Part shown: piece after piece, positions 14,428 to 57,573 of the stretch
Layout: each line of letters begins with the position of its first letter
How positions within the stretch are numbered: position 1 is the first letter of the stretch
Origin: Paraburkholderia sp. SOS3
GTDB taxonomy: Bacteria > Pseudomonadota > Gammaproteobacteria > Burkholderiales > Burkholderiaceae
Reading direction: 5' to 3'
DNA: 64,000 bases
Assembly (NCBI RefSeq): GCF_001922345.1
Contig: NZ_CP018811.1
Span: 2,728,001 to 2,792,000 of the forward strand
The notes under the pieces: generated by a model
Databases searched by the model: none
What the model saw: the letters and a program-made list of their open reading frames with translations, nothing else
What the model was told of the DNA's origin: nothing
Program-made: the position numbers and the translations under genes

Positions 14428-15699
14428 TCAATTCGAACCTGCAACCTTCGGTGCGTCTTCATAGATCAACAGCGGCTTGCCGTCGCCGTCGATCACGTTG
14501 TCGTCGATGATGACCTTGCTGACGCCTTTCATTGTCGGCAATTCGTACATGACGTCGAGCAACGCCTGTTCCAGAATCGAACGCAGGCCGCGAGCGCCCG
14601 TCTTGCGGCGGATCGCCTTGCGGGCAACCGCCTGTAGCGCAGCCGGCCGGATTTCCAGTTCCACGCGTTCCATGTTGAAGAGCTTATGGTATTGCTTGAC
14701 GAGAGCATTCTTCGGTTCAACGAGAATTTTCATCAATGCCGCTTCGTCGAGCTTGCCGAGCGTCGCCACCACCGGCAACCGGCCGATCAATTCAGGAATC
14801 AACCCGAATTTGATCAGATCTTCCGGCTCGACGTCGCGCAGCACTTCGCCCGCGTCTCGATCCTGCTTGCTCTTCACGCTCGCGCCAAAGCCGATGCCAG
14901 TCTTTTCGGTGCGGTCGACGATCACCTTTTCGAGGCCGTCGAACGCGCCACCGCAAATAAACAGGATATTGGTCGTATCGACCTGGATGAAATCCTGGTT
15001 CGGGTGCTTGCGACCGCCTTGCGGCGGCACCGACGCCATCGTGCCTTCGACAAGTTTCAGCAGTGCCTGCTGCACGCCCTCGCCCGACACGTCGCGCGTG
15101 ATGGACGGGTTGTCCGACTTGCGGCTGATCTTGTCGATTTCGTCGATATAGACGATGCCGCGCTGCGCCTTGTCGACTTCGTAGTTGCAGTTTTGCAGCA
15201 GCTTCTGGATGATGTTTTCGACGTCTTCACCGACGTAGCCCGCTTCGGTCAACGTCGTTGCGTCCGCAATCACGAACGGAACGTTGAGCAGGCGAGCAAG
15301 CGTCTGGGCAAGCAGCGTCTTGCCGGAACCGGTCGGGCCGATCAGCAGGATGTTGCTCTTCGACAGCTCGATTTCGTCCTTCTTGTCGAGATGCTTCAGA
15401 CGCTTGTAGTGGTTGTAGACGGCGACCGCGAGAATTTTTTTCGCGCGTTCCTGGCCGATTACGTACTGATCGAGAATTTCGCGGATTTCTTGCGGACTCG
15501 GTAAATCTGACTTCGACATACCGGTTTCGAGTCCCGCGCCCGCTGCTTCGTCACGGATGATCTCGTTGCACAGGTCGATACATTCATCGCAGATGAATAC
15601 CGACGGGCCAGCGATCAGCTTCTTGACCTCATGCTGACTCTTGCCGCAAAACGAGCAATACAACAGCTTCTCGCTGTTCGAACCTTTTTTGTCCGCCAT
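14428..15699 (-). CDS. clpX: ATP-dependent protease specificity subunit ClpX
   Basis: 423 aa, the usual size. The start at 15699 ([13 protein letters not shown]) precedes the zinc-binding domain with CSFCGKS and CDECIDLC. The AAA+ module follows: Walker [13 protein letters not shown] (about residue 123), Walker [11 protein letters not shown], and a sensor-2 region near the C-terminus. The ClpP-docking loop motif IGF lies in [11 protein letters not shown]. ClpX unfolds tagged substrates and feeds them to ClpP. It is 243 bp downstream of clpP on the same strand. That gap contains two copies of a 9-bp palindrome and is long enough for a separate promoter. Confidence 0.98.
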
Positions 15700-15896
15700 A
15701 GATATGTAAGCCTCCGGACACTCCGAATAACATGATACGCCGTTTGCCCCGCCCTCACTCCGAGGCGGACCAATGTGCAAATGCTGACGGCGTTTGCCGC
15801 AGGCGATCAGACGGGTCTTATTATTTCACAACGCTTTTACCGGGCGCTCTTTCCCCTATTTGCGGAAAAAACGCGCCGGATCGGCGACGCCCGTAT

Positions 15897-48946: not shown

Positions 48947-49740
48947 CATTGCAAGACTTAAGCCTGTGGCAAGTCGGCATCGCCGCGCTGCTGATCGTCG
49001 TCAACGGCGCGCTGTCGCTGCTGCTCAAGCTCGATCTCGAACGCAAGCTCGCGTGGGCGGCAGCGCGCACGATCGTCCAGTTGCTTGCGGTCGGATATGT
49101 GCTCGGCTGGGTGTTCAGCCACGCGCGCTGGTATTTCGTGCTACCGCTCATGATCGCGATGACGCTGATCGCCGGCTTTGCGGGCGCGGGACGCAGCAAA
49201 CGGACCTACGCCGGTCAGCGTGCGGACAGCATTGTGTCGATCTGGGCCGGTTCGTGGCTCGTCGCGGCGGTCGGGCTGTTCGTCGTGATCGGCATCCACC
49301 CGTGGTACGAGCCGCAGTATGCGATTCCGATTCTCGGCATGATCCTCGGCAATGCGCTAACGGGCGTCTCGCTCGGCATCGAGCGGATGACCGAGGAACT
49401 GACGGCGCGGCGCGACCGCGTCGAAATGGCGCTCGCGCTCGGCGCGACGCGTTGGGAAGCCGCGCAGGGACCGGCACGCGACGCGGTGCGCGCCGGCATG
49501 ATCCCGACGCTCAATCAGATGACGGTAGTCGGCGTGGTCAGCCTGCCCGGCATGATGACGGGTCAGGTGCTGGCGGGCCAGTCGCCGCTGCAGGCCGTGC
49601 GCTATCAGATCGTCATCATGTTCCTGATCGCGGCCGCGTCGGCGCTTGCCACGGTCGGCGCGGTGCTGCTCACGTATCGCAAGCTGTTCTCGGCCGAGCA
49701 CCGGTTTCTCGCGTCGCGGCTCGTCGAGCGCGCCCGCTAG
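48943..49740 (+). CDS. fetB: Iron-efflux-type ABC transporter permease FetB (YbbM)
   Basis: 265 aa, with about six or seven membrane helices. The start overlaps the fetA stop by four bases, so translation is coupled. The family core is visible in ILGMILGNALTGVSLGIERM and ALALGATRWEAAQGPARDAV (the coupling helix contacting the ATPase), followed by GVVSLPGMMTGQVLAGQSPLQAV. In E. coli the FetAB pair exports iron. The gene ends 11 bp before the convergent secreted-protein gene, with no obvious terminator. Confidence 0.9.
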   Translation: MTLQDLSLWQVGIAALLIVVNGALSLLLKLDLERKLAWAAARTIVQLLAVGYVLGWVFSHARWYFVLPLMIAMTLIAGFAGAGRSKRTYAGQRADSIVSIWAGSWLVAAVGLFVVIGIHPWYEPQYAIPILGMILGNALTGVSLGIERMTEELTARRDRVEMALALGATRWEAAQGPARDAVRAGMIPTLNQMTVVGVVSLPGMMTGQVLAGQSPLQAVRYQIVIMFLIAAASALATVGAVLLTYRKLFSAEHRFLASRLVERAR

Positions 49741-49751
49741 CGGCGTCTCGC

Positions 49752-50321
49752 TTACCGCTTCGCCGTCACCGCGATCTGCGACCCATCGCTGAGCGTCAAG
49801 GTCTTCGTGCTGCCGTTGGTCGGCATCGTAAAGCGGAGCACCTGGCTCACCGCCGTGTAGTCGGGACACTTGAGCGTCTTGCCATGGCTCGTGACGTCCT
49901 TCGTGCCATGCGGCGTTTGCGCCTGGAAGTTCAGTTGCACCGTTGCCGTGCCGTCCTTCGCGACGACCGGTGCAAAACGGATCTGCGTCTGGCGGATCAT
50001 CGCGCCGTTCGAATCGAGCGCTAACGACGCGTAGTTCGGGCATTCGTCCGGCGCGGGCACCGGGCCCCCGGGCGGCACGGTCTTCCATGTGAAGTCGTCG
50101 GATTCGCCCGAGCGGATCGTGCGGGTTTCCTGCGAATTGCCGAACTGCTTCGACGTGACCTTCACCGTGTAGCGGATCGGTCCATCGGTGGACGCTTTCG
50201 ACGTGACGGTGATCGGCGTCGCGGCAAGACTGCTCGCAGGCAACACGGCCAGCATGCAGGCGAAGAAGGCAGCAACAGAAACGGCGGAGAAGCTCGAGCC
50301 GATACGCATGCTTTTGCTCAT
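49752..50321 (-). CDS. Secreted hypothetical protein
   Basis: 189 aa with a signal peptide: MSKSMRIGSSFSAVSVAAFF, a continued hydrophobic core, cleavage expected near SSLAA at about residue 34. The mature protein is Thr/Ser/Val-rich and likely beta-sheet, with two Cys (DECPNY and LKCPDY) that may pair. I do not recognise a family. Its first 27 codons and upstream region are repeated exactly at 50621-51001 by the 381-bp tandem duplication; this copy is the intact one. Confidence 0.75.
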   Translation of the reverse strand: MSKSMRIGSSFSAVSVAAFFACMLAVLPASSLAATPITVTSKASTDGPIRYTVKVTSKQFGNSQETRTIRSGESDDFTWKTVPPGGPVPAPDECPNYASLALDSNGAMIRQTQIRFAPVVAKDGTATVQLNFQAQTPHGTKDVTSHGKTLKCPDYTAVSQVLRFTMPTNGSTKTLTLSDGSQIAVTAKR

Positions 50322-50620
50322 ATGTCACCTCGTTGTTGTGCTGGCGGGCGGTCTCCCATGCAAACGCCCTGCCAGCCAGTCTAACGCGGTGCGCCGCGCG
50401 TGCGTGCATCGATCGGATCGGGTATTACCCCGCTTGCCGTACGCGATGAACGCGCGCGCCTTCGTTCAAAAGCCTGTCAGCACGAGCTTGCCGATCGCGC
50501 GCCCCTCCTCGAGCATCCGGTGCGCGCGGCGCAGATTCCCGGCGTTGATGCGCCCGAGATCCTCGCCGACCGTCGTGCGCAACGTGCCCGCGTCGACGAG
50601 CCGCGCGACCTCGGTCAGCA
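50240..50620. repeat. 381-bp tandem duplication, copy 1
   Basis: Identical base for base to 50621-51001. The unit spans the first 27 codons of the secreted-protein gene, its upstream region, and the C-terminal coding part of the alcohol dehydrogenase gene. Identity extends two bases past each unit (GC), a microhomology at the junction. 381 is a multiple of three. Confidence 0.97.
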
Positions 50621-50702
50621 GCAACACGGCCAGCATGCAGGCGAAGAAGGCAGCAACAGAAACGGCGGAGAAGCTCGAGCCGATACGCATGCTTTTGCTC
50701 AT
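50466..50702 (-). CDS. Chimeric ORF: signal segment fused to an alcohol dehydrogenase tail
   Basis: 78 aa created at the duplication junction. Residues 1-27 are the signal segment of the secreted protein (ends FFACMLAVL). Residues 28-78 are the last 51 residues of the alcohol dehydrogenase (LLTEVARLVDAGTLRTTVGE and onward to LVLTGF). The signal-peptidase region of the donor is lost, so the product would be anchored by an uncleaved N-terminal helix with the tail outside. The upstream 144 bp to the neighbouring stop codon are identical to those of the donor gene, so promoter and ribosome site were copied too if they lie there. Whether it is expressed is unknown; it could also be a silent by-product. 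Confidence 0.55.
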   Translation of the reverse strand: MSKSMRIGSSFSAVSVAAFFACMLAVLLLTEVARLVDAGTLRTTVGEDLGRINAGNLRRAHRMLEEGRAIGKLVLTGF

Positions 50703-51001
50703 ATGTCACCTCGTTGTTGTGCTGGCGGGCGGTCTCCCATGCAAACGCCCTGCCAGCCAGTCTAACGCGGTGCGCCGCGCGTGCGTGCATCGATCGGATC
50801 GGGTATTACCCCGCTTGCCGTACGCGATGAACGCGCGCGCCTTCGTTCAAAAGCCTGTCAGCACGAGCTTGCCGATCGCGCGCCCCTCCTCGAGCATCCG
50901 GTGCGCGCGGCGCAGATTCCCGGCGTTGATGCGCCCGAGATCCTCGCCGACCGTCGTGCGCAACGTGCCCGCGTCGACGAGCCGCGCGACCTCGGTCAGC
51001 A
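50621..51001. repeat. 381-bp tandem duplication, copy 2
   Basis: The second copy, contiguous with the first. It contains the 3' end of the intact alcohol dehydrogenase gene and, at its left side, the start of the chimeric ORF. Confidence 0.97.
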
Positions 51002-51863
51002 GCTTGTGCTGCTCGATCATGTCGGACGTGCCGAACATCGCGCGCGTGAACATGAACTCCCAGTGAAACGCGCCGCTCTTCGCTTTCAACAGCTCGACGG
51101 GCACCGGCCGTTCGTTCTCGACGATCGTGCAGATCGCACCTTGCGGTTTGATCATTTCGGCGGCGGCCGGAAAATGCCGATCGGTATCGTTGAACATCAG
51201 CACATAGTCGACTTGCGGGATGCCAAGCGCTTTCAATTGCGCCGGCATATCGCCGAAATGATCGACGATATGATCGGCGCCGAGTTCTTTCGCCCACTTC
51301 GCCGACGCCGGCCGCGACGCGGTCGCAATGACCGTGAGCTTCGCGAGCTGCTTCGCGAGCTGGATGCCGATCGAACCGACCCCGCCCGCCCCGCCGATGA
51401 TCAGTACCGTGCGGCCTGCATCGGCGCCTTGCGGCGACACATGCAGGCGCGCAAACAGGGCTTCCCACGCGGTAATCGCCGTGAGCGGCAATGCGGCCGC
51501 CTGCGTGAAGTCGAGCGAGGCCGGCTTGCGTCCGACGATCCGCTCGTCGACAAGATGAAATTCGCTGTTCGCGCCCGGACGCGTAATGCTGCCCGCATAG
51601 AACACCGGATCGCCGACCTTGAACAGCGTGACCTCCGGGCCAACCGCGGCGACCGTGCCCGCGGCATCCCAGCCGAGCACGCGCGGCGTCGTCTCGACGG
51701 TATCCTTCGGCGCGCGCACCTTGTAGTCGACAGGGTTCACCGAAATCGCCTCGACCTTCACGAGCAGATCGCGGCCGGTCGGCGTGGGCTTGTCGATGTC
51801 GAGATCGAGCAGCGCTTCGGGCTCGCTGATCGGCAGGTAGCGATAAAGTCCTACGGCTTTCAT
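50847..51863 (-). CDS. Zinc-type alcohol dehydrogenase-like / quinone oxidoreductase family protein
   Basis: 338 aa, MDR superfamily. The N-terminal GroES-like domain (about 1-125) shows EAISVNPVDYKVRAPK and VLGWDAAGTVAAVGPEV. The NADPH-binding Rossmann domain carries VLIIGGAGGVGSIGIQLAKQ (about 150-170). The Cys and His zinc ligands of true alcohol dehydrogenases are absent, which points to the zinc-free quinone-oxidoreductase branch acting on enones or quinones with NADPH. It is divergent from a LysR gene, the classic layout of a regulator and its target. Its last 51 codons are duplicated at 50466-50620. Confidence 0.9.
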   Translation of the reverse strand: MKAVGLYRYLPISEPEALLDLDIDKPTPTGRDLLVKVEAISVNPVDYKVRAPKDTVETTPRVLGWDAAGTVAAVGPEVTLFKVGDPVFYAGSITRPGANSEFHLVDERIVGRKPASLDFTQAAALPLTAITAWEALFARLHVSPQGADAGRTVLIIGGAGGVGSIGIQLAKQLAKLTVIATASRPASAKWAKELGADHIVDHFGDMPAQLKALGIPQVDYVLMFNDTDRHFPAAAEMIKPQGAICTIVENERPVPVELLKAKSGAFHWEFMFTRAMFGTSDMIEQHKLLTEVARLVDAGTLRTTVGEDLGRINAGNLRRAHRMLEEGRAIGKLVLTGF

Positions 51864-51957
51864 GACGGTTCCTTTTCAGAGATCTTCGTTGATGGGTTGT
51901 CCGCTGCATGAAACACATCGTAGTGGCCCGCTGCTTCGCCGAAAACAGCCATAATTA

Positions 51958-51980
51958 CTGAAACATTTTCAGGAATTTCC
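51958..51980. promoter_or_regulatory. Probable LysR operator in the adh-lysR divergent region
   Basis: CTGAAA-CAT-TTTCAG (51958-51972), immediately followed by GGAA-T-TTCC (51972-51980). Both are inverted repeats 5-28 bp before the LysR start, where LysR proteins bind to control themselves and the divergent gene. Confidence 0.5.
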
Positions 51981-51985
51981 GAAAA

Positions 51986-52924
51986 ATGGCTTTCGTCGCT
52001 CCACTCCCCGATCCGCGCGACAGGCTCGATCTGCTCGACGTCGCGCTGTTCGTGCGTGCGGCACTGCTCGCGAACGTGTCGGCCGCCGGCCGCGAGTTCG
52101 GGCTCTCGCCGGCAGTGGCGAGCGCCCGTATTGCGAACCTCGAACACGAACTGGGCGCACGCCTGCTGCATCGAACCACGCGCCGCATCAGCCTTACACA
52201 GGAAGGCGAAGTGTTTATGGGCCGCGCGCAGACGCTGCTCGAAGCGGCCGCCGCCGCGCGCGCGTCGGTCGGACGCGCGCAGGCCGAACCGCAAGGGCGG
52301 TTGCGCGTATCGATGCCGTCGTCGTTCGGCAGGCAGCATGTCTCCCCCGCGATCGCGGCGTTCCTGCGGCGCTTTCCCGGCGTCAGCGTCGATCTGAGGT
52401 TGACCGATCACGTCGTCGATCTCGTCGACGGCGGCGTCGATGTCGCGATCCGGGTCGGTGCGCTCAAAGATTCGTCGCTCGTCGCGCGGCGGCTCGCAGC
52501 GAACCGGCGCATGCTGTGCTGCGCGCCCGCCTACCTCGCCGCGCGCGGCACGCCGCATCATCCGTCGGACCTCGCCGCACACGAGTGCATCGTGCTGTCG
52601 AACCAGCGCGACTGGTCGTTCATCACGCCGGCCGGTCCGGTCAGCGTGCGCGTCGAAGGACGGCTTGCCACCGACAACGGCGAGGTGATTCGCGACGCGC
52701 TGCTCGACGGCTTCGGCATCGCACTGAAATCGACGTGGGACGTCGCGCCGTATCTGAAAAGCGGCGCGCTCGTCACGGTGCTCGACAGTTACCCGCTTGC
52801 CGAGACCGTCGCGATCTGGGCCGTCTACCCGAGCCGCGCATTCGTGCCGCCGAAGACGCTCGCTTTTATCGATTTTCTCGCCGAGCGCTTCGGCGACCCG
52901 CCGTATTGGGACGACCCGTCATAG
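51986..52924 (+). CDS. LysR family transcriptional regulator
   Basis: 312 aa. The N-terminal winged helix-turn-helix (about 15-75) reads LLDVALFVRAALLANVSAAG and continues to ANLEHELGARLLHRTTRRISLTQ; a linker helix follows. The effector-binding domain (about 100-300) includes GRLRVSMPSSFGRQHVSPAI and DVAIRVGALKDSSLVARRL, typical of the DsdC/AaeR-like group that regulates dehydrogenases. It is divergent from the alcohol dehydrogenase gene with a 122-bp shared region containing palindromes, so it probably controls that gene. The inducer is unknown. Confidence 0.93.
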   Translation: MAFVAPLPDPRDRLDLLDVALFVRAALLANVSAAGREFGLSPAVASARIANLEHELGARLLHRTTRRISLTQEGEVFMGRAQTLLEAAAAARASVGRAQAEPQGRLRVSMPSSFGRQHVSPAIAAFLRRFPGVSVDLRLTDHVVDLVDGGVDVAIRVGALKDSSLVARRLAANRRMLCCAPAYLAARGTPHHPSDLAAHECIVLSNQRDWSFITPAGPVSVRVEGRLATDNGEVIRDALLDGFGIALKSTWDVAPYLKSGALVTVLDSYPLAETVAIWAVYPSRAFVPPKTLAFIDFLAERFGDPPYWDDPS

Positions 52925-53329: not shown

Positions 53330-56230
53330 CTACCCGCGTTCGCCCGCGAGGCGTTTTCTCATCGCCGCCGTGATGCGCTGCCGCGTCTTCGCATAGTCGG
53401 CCCACGGATCCTCGCGCAGCGACTGCAGGCGCTCGTGCAGATTCGCGATGTTCCACTGGTCGCCGGCCGTGGTGTCCGGCACTTCGTCCCAACTGAGCGG
53501 CACCGAGACGCCGAGACCCGGCCGCGCGCGCGCCGAATAGGCTGCGACCGTGCTCGAGCCGCGGTTGTTGCGCAGGTAGTCGACGAATATCTTGCCCTTG
53601 CGGTTTTGCGCGCCCATCTTCGCGGCGAAGTTCTTCGGCAGCGTGCTCGCCATGTGCTGCGCGACGGCCTGAGAAAACGCCTTTACGTCGTCCCAGCCCT
53701 CGTGTTTCGTCAGCGGCACCACGACATGCAGGCCCTTGCCGCCGCTCGTCTTGCAGAACGATACGAGTCCGAGTTCGGCGAGCAGCGTATGCGTCAGTTG
53801 CGCCGCTTCGATCATCCGCTCCCAGCCGAGCGCAGGATCGGGGTCGAGATCGAACACGACGCGGTCGGGTTTCTCGATGTTCGAGGCCACCGCATTCCAC
53901 GTGTGCAACTCGATCGTGCCCATCTGCGCCGCGCCGACGAGCGCTTTCGCGCTGTCGATCGTGATCAGCGACGGATGGCCGGGATCGAGCCCCGGATGCT
54001 GCGTGATGTTCGGGATCGACAGCTTTTCGGCATGCTTCTGGAAAAACAGCTCGCCGCCGATATCCTCGGGCGCGCGTACGAGCGACACCGGGCGATCGCG
54101 CAGATGCGGCAGCATCCAGTCGGCCACTGACTCGTAATAGCGCACGAGATCGATCTTGCGTGTGTCCGTGTGCTTGTCGATCACGCGGTCCGGATGCGAG
54201 ATCCGCACGCCCGCGACCGTCTGCGTCGCGGCGCCCCGCGCTTTCGATGTGCCGCGCGACGCAGCCGTTGCCGCGCGCGTGTCGCCGCCTTCGGCTTGCG
54301 CCGTCTTGCGCGACGAAGACGCCTTACCTGCGCGTTTGGTTGCCGCCGTGCCGTCGCCGTCATGCGTCGCGGTCCGCGCTTTCGCCGCGCGTGCCTTCGT
54401 ACGCGGCGCGGCCCGCGAGGCTGCGCTTTCGTCTTCACTCGTCTGTTGCACGTCAGCTCCTTGGCGCGGCGCTTCGATGACGATCTGCCGCGCGGGTTTA
54501 TCGCTGCGCAGGCTGACAAACGACGCCTGGCGGACGATGCCTTCATCGGTCAATTCGGCGAAATTGCATTCGGCGACGAGCTCGGGCTTGACCCAGTGCA
54601 CGGGTGTGCGACTGCGTTCGCTGGGTACGCTCGCGAAAGGCATCTTCGTCGTTTCGCGCGCGTCGAGCTCTTTTTTTACGGCACGCAGCCGCTTCGCATC
54701 GAAGCCCGTGCCGACGCGGCCTGCATAGCGCAGCTTGCCCCCTTCGTCGTAGACGCCAAGCAGCAGCGCGCCGAAGTCCGACCGGCTGCCGCCCGGTTCC
54801 GTATAACCGCCGATCACGAATTCCTGGCGCCGCCGGCATTTGAGCTTGATCCATGCCGACGAACGGCCCGACGTATAACGGCTGTCGCGCCGCTTGCCGA
54901 TGATGCCTTCGAGCGACATCTCGCACGCGCTTCTGATCAAGGCCTCAGCGTCAGTGCCGAAGTCGGCCGAATAGCGCAACGCGTCGTCGTCGAGCGATTC
55001 GAGCAGCGCGCGTAGCAATGCGCGGCGCTGTTCGAGCGGTACGTTGCGCAGGTCGTAGCCGTTCAGATACGGCAGGTCGAACAGATACAGCGTGATGTCG
55101 CGTTCGCGATGCGTATCGAACGCGTTTTGCAGCGCCTGAAAGCTCGGTACGCCATGCTCGTCGAGCACCACGGCTTCGCCGTCCAGCCATGCGGTCTCGA
55201 CTCCGATCTTCGCGAGCGCTTGCGCCTGTTTGCCGAACCTTTCGGTCCAGTCGTTGCCCGCGCGCGTGAAAATGCGCACCGGATCTTTCTCGTTGCGCTG
55301 ATCGATGCGCGCGAGCACGCGGTAGCCGTCGAACTTGATCTCGTAGGTCCATGTGTCGCCGGCGGGCGGGGTTTCGACGAGCGTAGCGAGCTCCGGCTTC
55401 ATCGCGGCAGGCAGCGCGGCCTTTTTCGCTCCTTCGATCGCAGGCGTTTGCGCGAGCTCGCGCAGCGACTCGCTGTTGCGCGTCGCGACGATGTCGGGGT
55501 GCTCGCTGCGCCTGGCCGCGCTGGTGCCAGTGCTGGTACGAGCCGTGCGAGCGGGCGCGCGGCCAGTCGATTGCGGCTTGGTCTGCGGCCTGGCGGCGCG
55601 CTCGCCCTTGCTCGCACCGTGCCCGCCCTGCGCGCCCGGCGCATCGGACAACACACTGCCAGGATACGCGCCGAGCACATCGAATTCGCTCTCGCTATGG
55701 GCTTCGCGGTCGCGCTCCTTGATCAGCAGCCACTGCTCCTTGTCGCCGCTGCCGCGCATATGGCTGCGCACGAGCGTCCAGCCGCCGTGCAGCTTCTCGC
55801 CGTGCAACTGGAACTTGAGCTTGCCGGCCGCGTATGCGGCGAGCGCCTCGCGCTCGCCGCCGACCGGTTCCCACGTGCCACGGTCCCAAACGATAACGTC
55901 GCCTGCGCCATAGTGGCCTTCCGGAATCGTGCCCTCGAACGACCCATAGTCGAGCGGATGGTCTTCGACGTGCACGGCGAGCCGCTTCACCGACGGGTCG
56001 AGGCTCGGCCCTTTCGGTATCGCCCACGATTTCAGGGTGCCGTCGAGCTCGAGCCGGAAGTCGTAGTGCAGACGCCGTGCATCGTGCTCCTGAATGACGA
56101 AGGCGAGCGCATGCGTCGCTTTGCGCGCTGCGCCTCGGCCGGCGGCCTTGCGCGGCGCATCCGCCCCGGACGGCTCGGGCGTTTCATCGAAGCGTCGTTT
56201 GCGGTGATAGGTTTCCAGTTTGTCGGCCAT
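53330..56230 (-). CDS. ligD: ATP-dependent DNA ligase D (NHEJ)
   Basis: 966 aa, longer than the approximately 840 of Pseudomonas LigD because of two low-complexity linkers. The order is phosphoesterase, ligase, polymerase. The 3'-phosphoesterase domain (about 45-185) has EHDARRLHYDFRLELDG and VHVEDHPLDYGSFEG. The ligase (about 285-590) has the adenylation Lys in YEIKFDGYR and the motif ELDEEAVVL-like WLDGEAVVLDEHG. The primase-polymerase (about 685-955) has the catalytic VVFDLDPDP. It processes and seals double-strand breaks held by Ku. The ATG lies 36 bp after ku on the same strand. Confidence 0.95.
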   Translation of the reverse strand: MADKLETYHRKRRFDETPEPSGADAPRKAAGRGAARKATHALAFVIQEHDARRLHYDFRLELDGTLKSWAIPKGPSLDPSVKRLAVHVEDHPLDYGSFEGTIPEGHYGAGDVIVWDRGTWEPVGGEREALAAYAAGKLKFQLHGEKLHGGWTLVRSHMRGSGDKEQWLLIKERDREAHSESEFDVLGAYPGSVLSDAPGAQGGHGASKGERAARPQTKPQSTGRAPARTARTSTGTSAARRSEHPDIVATRNSESLRELAQTPAIEGAKKAALPAAMKPELATLVETPPAGDTWTYEIKFDGYRVLARIDQRNEKDPVRIFTRAGNDWTERFGKQAQALAKIGVETAWLDGEAVVLDEHGVPSFQALQNAFDTHRERDITLYLFDLPYLNGYDLRNVPLEQRRALLRALLESLDDDALRYSADFGTDAEALIRSACEMSLEGIIGKRRDSRYTSGRSSAWIKLKCRRRQEFVIGGYTEPGGSRSDFGALLLGVYDEGGKLRYAGRVGTGFDAKRLRAVKKELDARETTKMPFASVPSERSRTPVHWVKPELVAECNFAELTDEGIVRQASFVSLRSDKPARQIVIEAPRQGADVQQTSEDESAASRAAPRTKARAAKARTATHDGDGTAATKRAGKASSSRKTAQAEGGDTRAATAASRGTSKARGAATQTVAGVRISHPDRVIDKHTDTRKIDLVRYYESVADWMLPHLRDRPVSLVRAPEDIGGELFFQKHAEKLSIPNITQHPGLDPGHPSLITIDSAKALVGAAQMGTIELHTWNAVASNIEKPDRVVFDLDPDPALGWERMIEAAQLTHTLLAELGLVSFCKTSGGKGLHVVVPLTKHEGWDDVKAFSQAVAQHMASTLPKNFAAKMGAQNRKGKIFVDYLRNNRGSSTVAAYSARARPGLGVSVPLSWDEVPDTTAGDQWNIANLHERLQSLREDPWADYAKTRQRITAAMRKRLAGERG

Positions 56231-56266
56231 GATTCATCGTGACGGTCGGCTTCGCTATCTGTACGC

Positions 56267-57277
56267 CTAGGCGGCGCGGCGTTTGCGCACGGCCGTGCTG
56301 CTCGCGCCGCCTGAGCTTCGCCGCGTCGTTGCCTTGCTCTTTGCGGCGCGGCGCGGTGCGCGCCGCGTGTTGGCGCCGGTTTCCTGTTCGGCGTCCTCGT
56401 CACGGCTGGCGCGCGCACGCGCCGGCTTCGCCGTGGCTTTCCCATCTGCTTTCGCCGCCGACTTGCGCGCGCCCGCGGCTTTGCCCTTGCCGAGGCTGCG
56501 CTTGAGCAGTTCCGACAGATCGAGAATATCGGCGCTCGGCCGCGTGTCGGCCGGCTCGTCGACCTCGCCGATTTCCTCGGTCCTGCCTTCGCTGACCTTG
56601 CGGTCGACCAGGGCCATGATGTCGTCGTGGAACGTGTCGTGATACGCGGATGGATCCCACGCGTCGCTCATATCGTCGATGAGCTTCTTCGCCATCTCGA
56701 GCTCGCGCGGCGTGACGCCGGCCTTCTTGCGGTTTTCGTCCGGCAGCTTCAGTTCGTCGTACGATCGAACTTCGCCGGCCCAGCGCAGCGTGTTCAGCGC
56801 GAGCACCGGGCCGATCGGTATCAGCGCCGCGAGATGCTGCTTGTTGTGCATCACGACGTTCGCAATACCGATCTTGCCGCTTTCCTTGAGCGCCTCGCGC
56901 AACAGCGCGTAGACCTTTTCACCCTTGCGATCGGGCGTCAGATAGTAGGGCGTATCGAGATACAGGAACGAGATGTCCGGCGCTTCGACGAACGCGAGAA
57001 TATCGACGGTCTGCGTCGATTCGGGGTTTGCCGAGCGAATCTCCGCATCGGACATCACGACATATTTACCCTTCTCGTACTCGAAGCCGCGCACGATATT
57101 CTCGCGCGTGACTTCCTTGCCCGTGCGCTTGTTGATCTGCTTGTATCCGATCGGATCGATCGACCGCTTGTCGAGCAGATTGAAGCCCACTTTCTCCGAC
57201 TGCGTCGCCGGATACAACTGCACCGGCACATGCACGAGACCGAAGCTGATTGCGCCTTTCCAGATCATATGTGCCAT
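56267..57277 (-). CDS. ku: Ku protein, bacterial NHEJ end-binding homodimer
   Basis: 336 aa. The start at 57277 gives MAHMIWKGAISFGLVHVPVQL, the standard Ku opening, and has GGGGAG before it. The Ku core ring (about 1-255) includes GYKQINKRTGKEVTRENIVRG, VYALLREALKESGKIGIANV and LEMAKKLIDDMS. A long Lys/Arg/Ala-rich tail (about 275-336) follows, which in other bacteria increases DNA binding and recruits LigD. Ku threads onto broken ends and stabilises them for ligation. It is the first gene of the ku-ligD pair, divergent from serB. Confidence 0.96.
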   Translation of the reverse strand: MAHMIWKGAISFGLVHVPVQLYPATQSEKVGFNLLDKRSIDPIGYKQINKRTGKEVTRENIVRGFEYEKGKYVVMSDAEIRSANPESTQTVDILAFVEAPDISFLYLDTPYYLTPDRKGEKVYALLREALKESGKIGIANVVMHNKQHLAALIPIGPVLALNTLRWAGEVRSYDELKLPDENRKKAGVTPRELEMAKKLIDDMSDAWDPSAYHDTFHDDIMALVDRKVSEGRTEEIGEVDEPADTRPSADILDLSELLKRSLGKGKAAGARKSAAKADGKATAKPARARASRDEDAEQETGANTRRAPRRAAKSKATTRRSSGGASSTAVRKRRAA

Positions 57278-57573
57278 CGCGCACTCCCCGAGGTTCAGAC
57301 TTCGATGGAAGCAGCAAGCATGCCACGCGGCTTTCCACGTTGTGCCCACGGTAGATGGCTCGAGCACGCGCATTCATATGCGTATCGTGCCGCGAGCAGG
57401 CTGTAAGAGTTGCGTGCCGGGCGGCAAAAGATGCGGGCGGGCGAGCGCGTAGATCGGACCCGTTACAATAGCCGGATTTTCGGCGGCCGCCCTGCAGTGA
57501 ACTGCAGTGAACCTCGCGGCCCACCTTTGCGCGCCTGTTTCCCTCTATTGCTTCCAGCCATTTTCGCGTCGAC

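Follow-up and report, generated by a model that had tools for sequence, protein, structure and literature searches.

A perfect 381-bp tandem duplication spanning two gene ends in Paraburkholderia sp. SOS3

A 381-bp segment that spans the ends of two neighboring genes is present as two identical, head-to-tail copies in the chromosome of Paraburkholderia sp. SOS3, and it leaves both genes whole while creating an open, in-frame chimeric reading frame at the junction. The best explanation, to which we give a probability of about 0.82, is that the segment was duplicated in tandem by a recent spontaneous event that involved no extended homology; the duplication is probably neutral and unstable. The window analyzed here is a 64,000-nucleotide stretch (positions 2728001 to 2792000 of contig C1) of an assembly of 7,502,907 bases in three contigs.

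The repeat and the genes it copies

A sequence-only reading of the window had noted that positions 50240-50620 and 50621-51001 are the same, and this is borne out both by script comparison of the two 381-mers, which are identical over all 381 bp, and by Tandem Repeats Finder, which reports 50240-51003 with a period of 381, 2.0 copies, 100% matches, no indels, and a score of 1528. A separate repeat search, with a reference copy of 300 nt, also returned a pair at a spacing of 381. A chance match cannot account for a perfect tandem of this length. When the whole genome was searched with the 381-bp unit, two places were found, corresponding to the two copies, with no third place at an E-value of 0.001. 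The features of the region are as follows:

49752..50321, minus strand: intact DUF6013 gene, 189 aa (ORF; PF19476, E-value 3.1e-89), its first 27 codons inside copy 1
50240..50620, no strand assigned: copy 1 of the 381-bp tandem unit, identical to 50621-51001
50322..50465, minus strand: 144-bp spacer in copy 1; the stretch GAGGTGA, resembling a ribosome-binding site, precedes the DUF6013 start
50466..50702, minus strand: in-frame chimeric ORF, 78 aa, DUF6013 residues 1-27 plus the last 51 dehydrogenase residues
50621..51001, no strand assigned: copy 2 of the tandem unit, followed at 51002-51003 by a repeat of the unit's first two bases, GC
50703..50846, minus strand: 144-bp spacer in copy 2, which now precedes the chimeric ORF
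50847..51863, minus strand: intact gene of the zinc-binding alcohol dehydrogenase family, 338 aa (ORF; TIGR02817, 488.5 bits against a cut-off of 284.05), its last 51 codons inside copy 2

Read along the minus strand, the unit thus consists of the last 51 dehydrogenase codons, the 144-bp spacer, and the first 27 DUF6013 codons, and the gene order after duplication is the whole dehydrogenase gene, spacer, chimera, spacer, and the whole DUF6013 gene. The ORFs and domain matches therefore agree with the earlier proposal that two gene ends are joined in the unit and each gene keeps an intact copy. The DUF6013 N-terminus looks like a signal peptide, as judged by eye, with hydropathy being the only computed value. 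A protein search with DUF6013 returned records from Paraburkholderia, Burkholderia sp., and Trinickia, and the literature collection searched holds no publication on DUF6013.

The spacer before the DUF6013 gene (50319-50470) has a predicted fold of -68.6 kcal/mol, with a z-score of -3.23 relative to 200 shuffles. There are no known-RNA matches in Rfam across 49600-52100 at E-values up to 1, and a terminator scan of the region gave none. Among relatives, the spacers differ widely in length and in the stems they hold, with 61 distinct spacer sequences among 88 loci plus the window; the other 28 of the 116 loci gave no spacer, the DUF6013 start not being resolved. Since the unit length of 381 is divisible by three, a plus-strand ORF of 292 aa (50188-51066) can run through both copies; Pfam gives no match for it, and it is taken as a chance ORF.

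The single-copy form in relatives

Comparison with other members of the genus supports a single-copy ancestry at the species level. The genus search covered 144 genomes including that of SOS3 (130 with a match and 14 without), and the full 764-bp query was matched only in SOS3 itself; the next best match, in genome G079, covers 367 bp at 89% identity. None of the 143 other genomes has a match extending beyond about one copy, as judged from the best E-value listed for each, with weaker matches seen only in part. When the window is reduced to a one-unit form, it aligns with G079 in one piece of 3,141 columns, with 2,792 identical (89%) and 27 gap columns, and the two genomes share a spacer length of 144 bp. 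In contrast, the window as given is split into two alignment pieces, which overlap each other on one stretch of G079. Twelve gap columns lie in the signal-peptide part beside the left end point, to which we give no weight because the length of the DUF6013 protein varies among relatives.

The same pattern is seen among individual loci. We examined 147, with 40 from the SOS3 genome left out and some places fetched repeatedly, and 116 of these carry both genes on one strand. In none of the 116 is there a second dehydrogenase end (tblastn, E-value 1e-3). Second tblastn hits in locus L001 are among the evidence for the chimeric ORF. A scan for exact tandems across the loci gathered at that stage showed the 381-bp period only in loci of the SOS3 genome. 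On these comparisons, the ancestral form appears to be the single-copy one. The search turned up no sister strain, and the 100% DUF6013 protein match is a cluster of two sequences on one contig. The complete identity of the copies, set against divergence from G079 at about 11% of sites, also supports the earlier suggestion of a very recent event.

Two other features of these loci are of note. In L033, L034, and L038 (from P. humisilvae, P. rhizosphaerae, and P. solisilvae; DUF6013 protein 82-85%), no full dehydrogenase gene is present within the 3 kb of flanking sequence fetched to either side, unlike at most loci, and L033 has one weak partial dehydrogenase match. Loci L012 (from 3369) and L081 (from 3654), which may be of the same species, have 32- and 40-bp-period tandem repeats downstream of the DUF6013 gene.

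Origin of the duplication

Slippage of the polymerase, a switch of template between sister strands, or the joining of the ends of a staggered break could each have produced the duplication, in which the spacer and two gene ends were copied and both genes stayed whole. The two end points have the dinucleotide GC in common, and these are also the last two bases of 50240-51003. The shared bases, earlier described as microhomology, are real, but they provide no evidence for microhomology-driven formation, because a random join shares at least 2 bases with a probability of about 0.18 at the base composition of the window. Besides the unit itself, there are no direct repeats of at least 20 bp flanking it within 49000-52500, and the end points thus have 2 bp in common rather than the long direct repeats of a homology-mediated duplication. 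Together, the chance-like junction and the lack of end repeats of at least 20 bp point to a duplication that arose with no extended homology. A single junction does not distinguish between slippage, template switching, and end joining.

In a special case of this explanation, Ku and LigD would have carried out the end joining, on staggered breaks between sister chromosomes. Two Ku matches are present in the genome, one on contig C2 near position 1248122 and the other beside a full-length ligD gene, as follows:

53330-56230, minus strand: ligD, 966 aa, with phosphoesterase, ligase, and polymerase domains
56267-57373, minus strand: Ku ORF, 368 aa, paired with ligD (ku-ligD, 53330-57373)

With these genes, end joining is available in this genome, and short junction homology fits it. 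The near end of ligD is 2.3 kb from the repeat, but the nearness of genes says nothing about where their enzymes act, and slippage or template switching fit the same junction. We regard specific involvement of Ku and LigD as unlikely.

An assembly artefact, which the sequence-only reading had raised, has to be weighed against a spontaneous duplication. Overlapping ends of contigs or reads could have been abutted unmerged, or the untrimmed overlap of a circular contig could have been left inside after rotation; a circular contig rotated with such an overlap still in it would show just this kind of repeat. The perfect identity of the copies, the position of the boundaries at arbitrary places within two genes, and the chance-like 2-bp junction homology are all as expected for such an error. 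However, the untrimmed-circle version is not supported, as none of the three contigs has a terminal overlap, and a dnaA domain lies at C1:189235, showing that C1 is not rotated to start at dnaA (although it could have been rotated to another point). More generally, 37 pieces of the genome (the window and 36 other stretches; 771,577 of 7,502,907 bases, about 10%) contain no other perfect tandem with a unit of at least 30 and a length of at least 60, apart from one call inside a 9-bp array; the third contig and the terminal 12 kb at the ends of C1 and C2 have none either. Three contigs for 7.5 Mb also suggest long reads, which would be able to span 764 bp. In a literature search on bacterial assembly duplications, no bacterial assembly is named in the 10 titles listed of 26 papers. 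The artefact explanation is weakened by the dnaA position, the absence of end overlaps, and the lack of a comparable tandem in the sampled tenth of the genome, and we consider it improbable. The 9-bp array is at positions 15612-15736 of stretch L152, on the same chromosome as the window, and has its unit about 14 times with 89% matches. The small third contig (C3; 27,577 bases), in which neither a terminal overlap nor a tandem was seen, has some ORFs that appear phage-like by eye only.

The duplication is known from one assembly and may be absent from the culture or not fixed in it. Its mode of formation, neutrality, and instability are inferred, the last in part by analogy. In Deinococcus (PMC4627823), the median recombination frequency of 438-bp direct repeats at least 1.5 kb apart was 6.5e-4 in the wild type and 8e-4 without RecA; although this is another bacterium and the repeats there do not abut, a 381-bp perfect tandem would likewise be expected to be unstable, and one of such length would probably collapse by recombination unless selected.

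The chimeric reading frame and known systems

The chimera has the same GAGGTGA upstream as the DUF6013 gene and could be translated behind this copied ribosome-binding site. It has a PF13602 match on residues 27-75. With only 51 of the 338 dehydrogenase residues present, the chimera is most likely a passenger with no function. Its 46 protein relatives cover 56-68% of it and match the dehydrogenase part, the best of them being a 68-aa dehydrogenase fragment. None of the 46 covers the whole chimera, a result of little weight since the window's own chimera is also missing from the matches.

A different view is that selection keeps the duplication, either because the chimera is a useful exported or membrane peptide or because DUF6013 expression is altered by the new sequence upstream of its spacer. 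The chimera is in frame and open, the DUF6013 start and the ribosome-binding-site-like stretch are kept, and the hydrophobic N-terminal stretch persists, with a 19-residue maximum of 2.53 compared with 2.14 in the parent; by a crude rule, there is also one new cleavage-like site, after residue 38. The in-frame junction and the copied ribosome-binding site leave room for selection on the chimera and count to that extent against a neutral duplication. Nonetheless, one join in three would be in frame by chance, the same crude rule no longer finds the cleavage-like sites that the parent has after residues 29-34, the chimera lacks the dehydrogenase's ADH_N and ADH_zinc_N parts, and no relative spans the entire chimera. 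Moreover, a scan of the region found no sigma-70-like promoters, though promoters of other types could be present. Selection is thus a very improbable explanation. Marginally less probable still is a gene-birth intermediate, in which the DUF6013 signal region, fused in frame to the dehydrogenase tail with both parents kept, would be translated from the copied ribosome-binding site and be reversible by repeat recombination, such that a population might switch a chimeric peptide on and off.

The locus looks like an ordinary recent tandem duplication with no sign of function, and the general picture of such events is unchanged by it. As a clean case of very young tandem duplication whose end points are known exactly, it could serve as a marker for measuring rates of collapse and expansion, and it illustrates how a fused reading frame can arise by duplication while the parents stay unharmed.

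The head-to-tail copy, the intact parental genes, and the one novel junction are as in spontaneous bacterial tandem duplications, and no mobile elements were recognized among the genes scanned around the repeat. It differs from the experimentally verified spontaneous duplications in Salmonella (PMC3411829), which had junction homologies of at least 11 bp; the duplication here is small (381 bp) and has 2 bp. This difference would count against its being of the same type, although the sensitivity of the Salmonella study to such small duplications may matter. There is also a resemblance to deletion-born fusion genes (PMC12803068), in which a rearrangement fuses the beginning of one ORF with the end of a second, generating a novel frame. 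Unlike those fusions, this one is formed by a duplication, with both parents surviving and no gene being lost.
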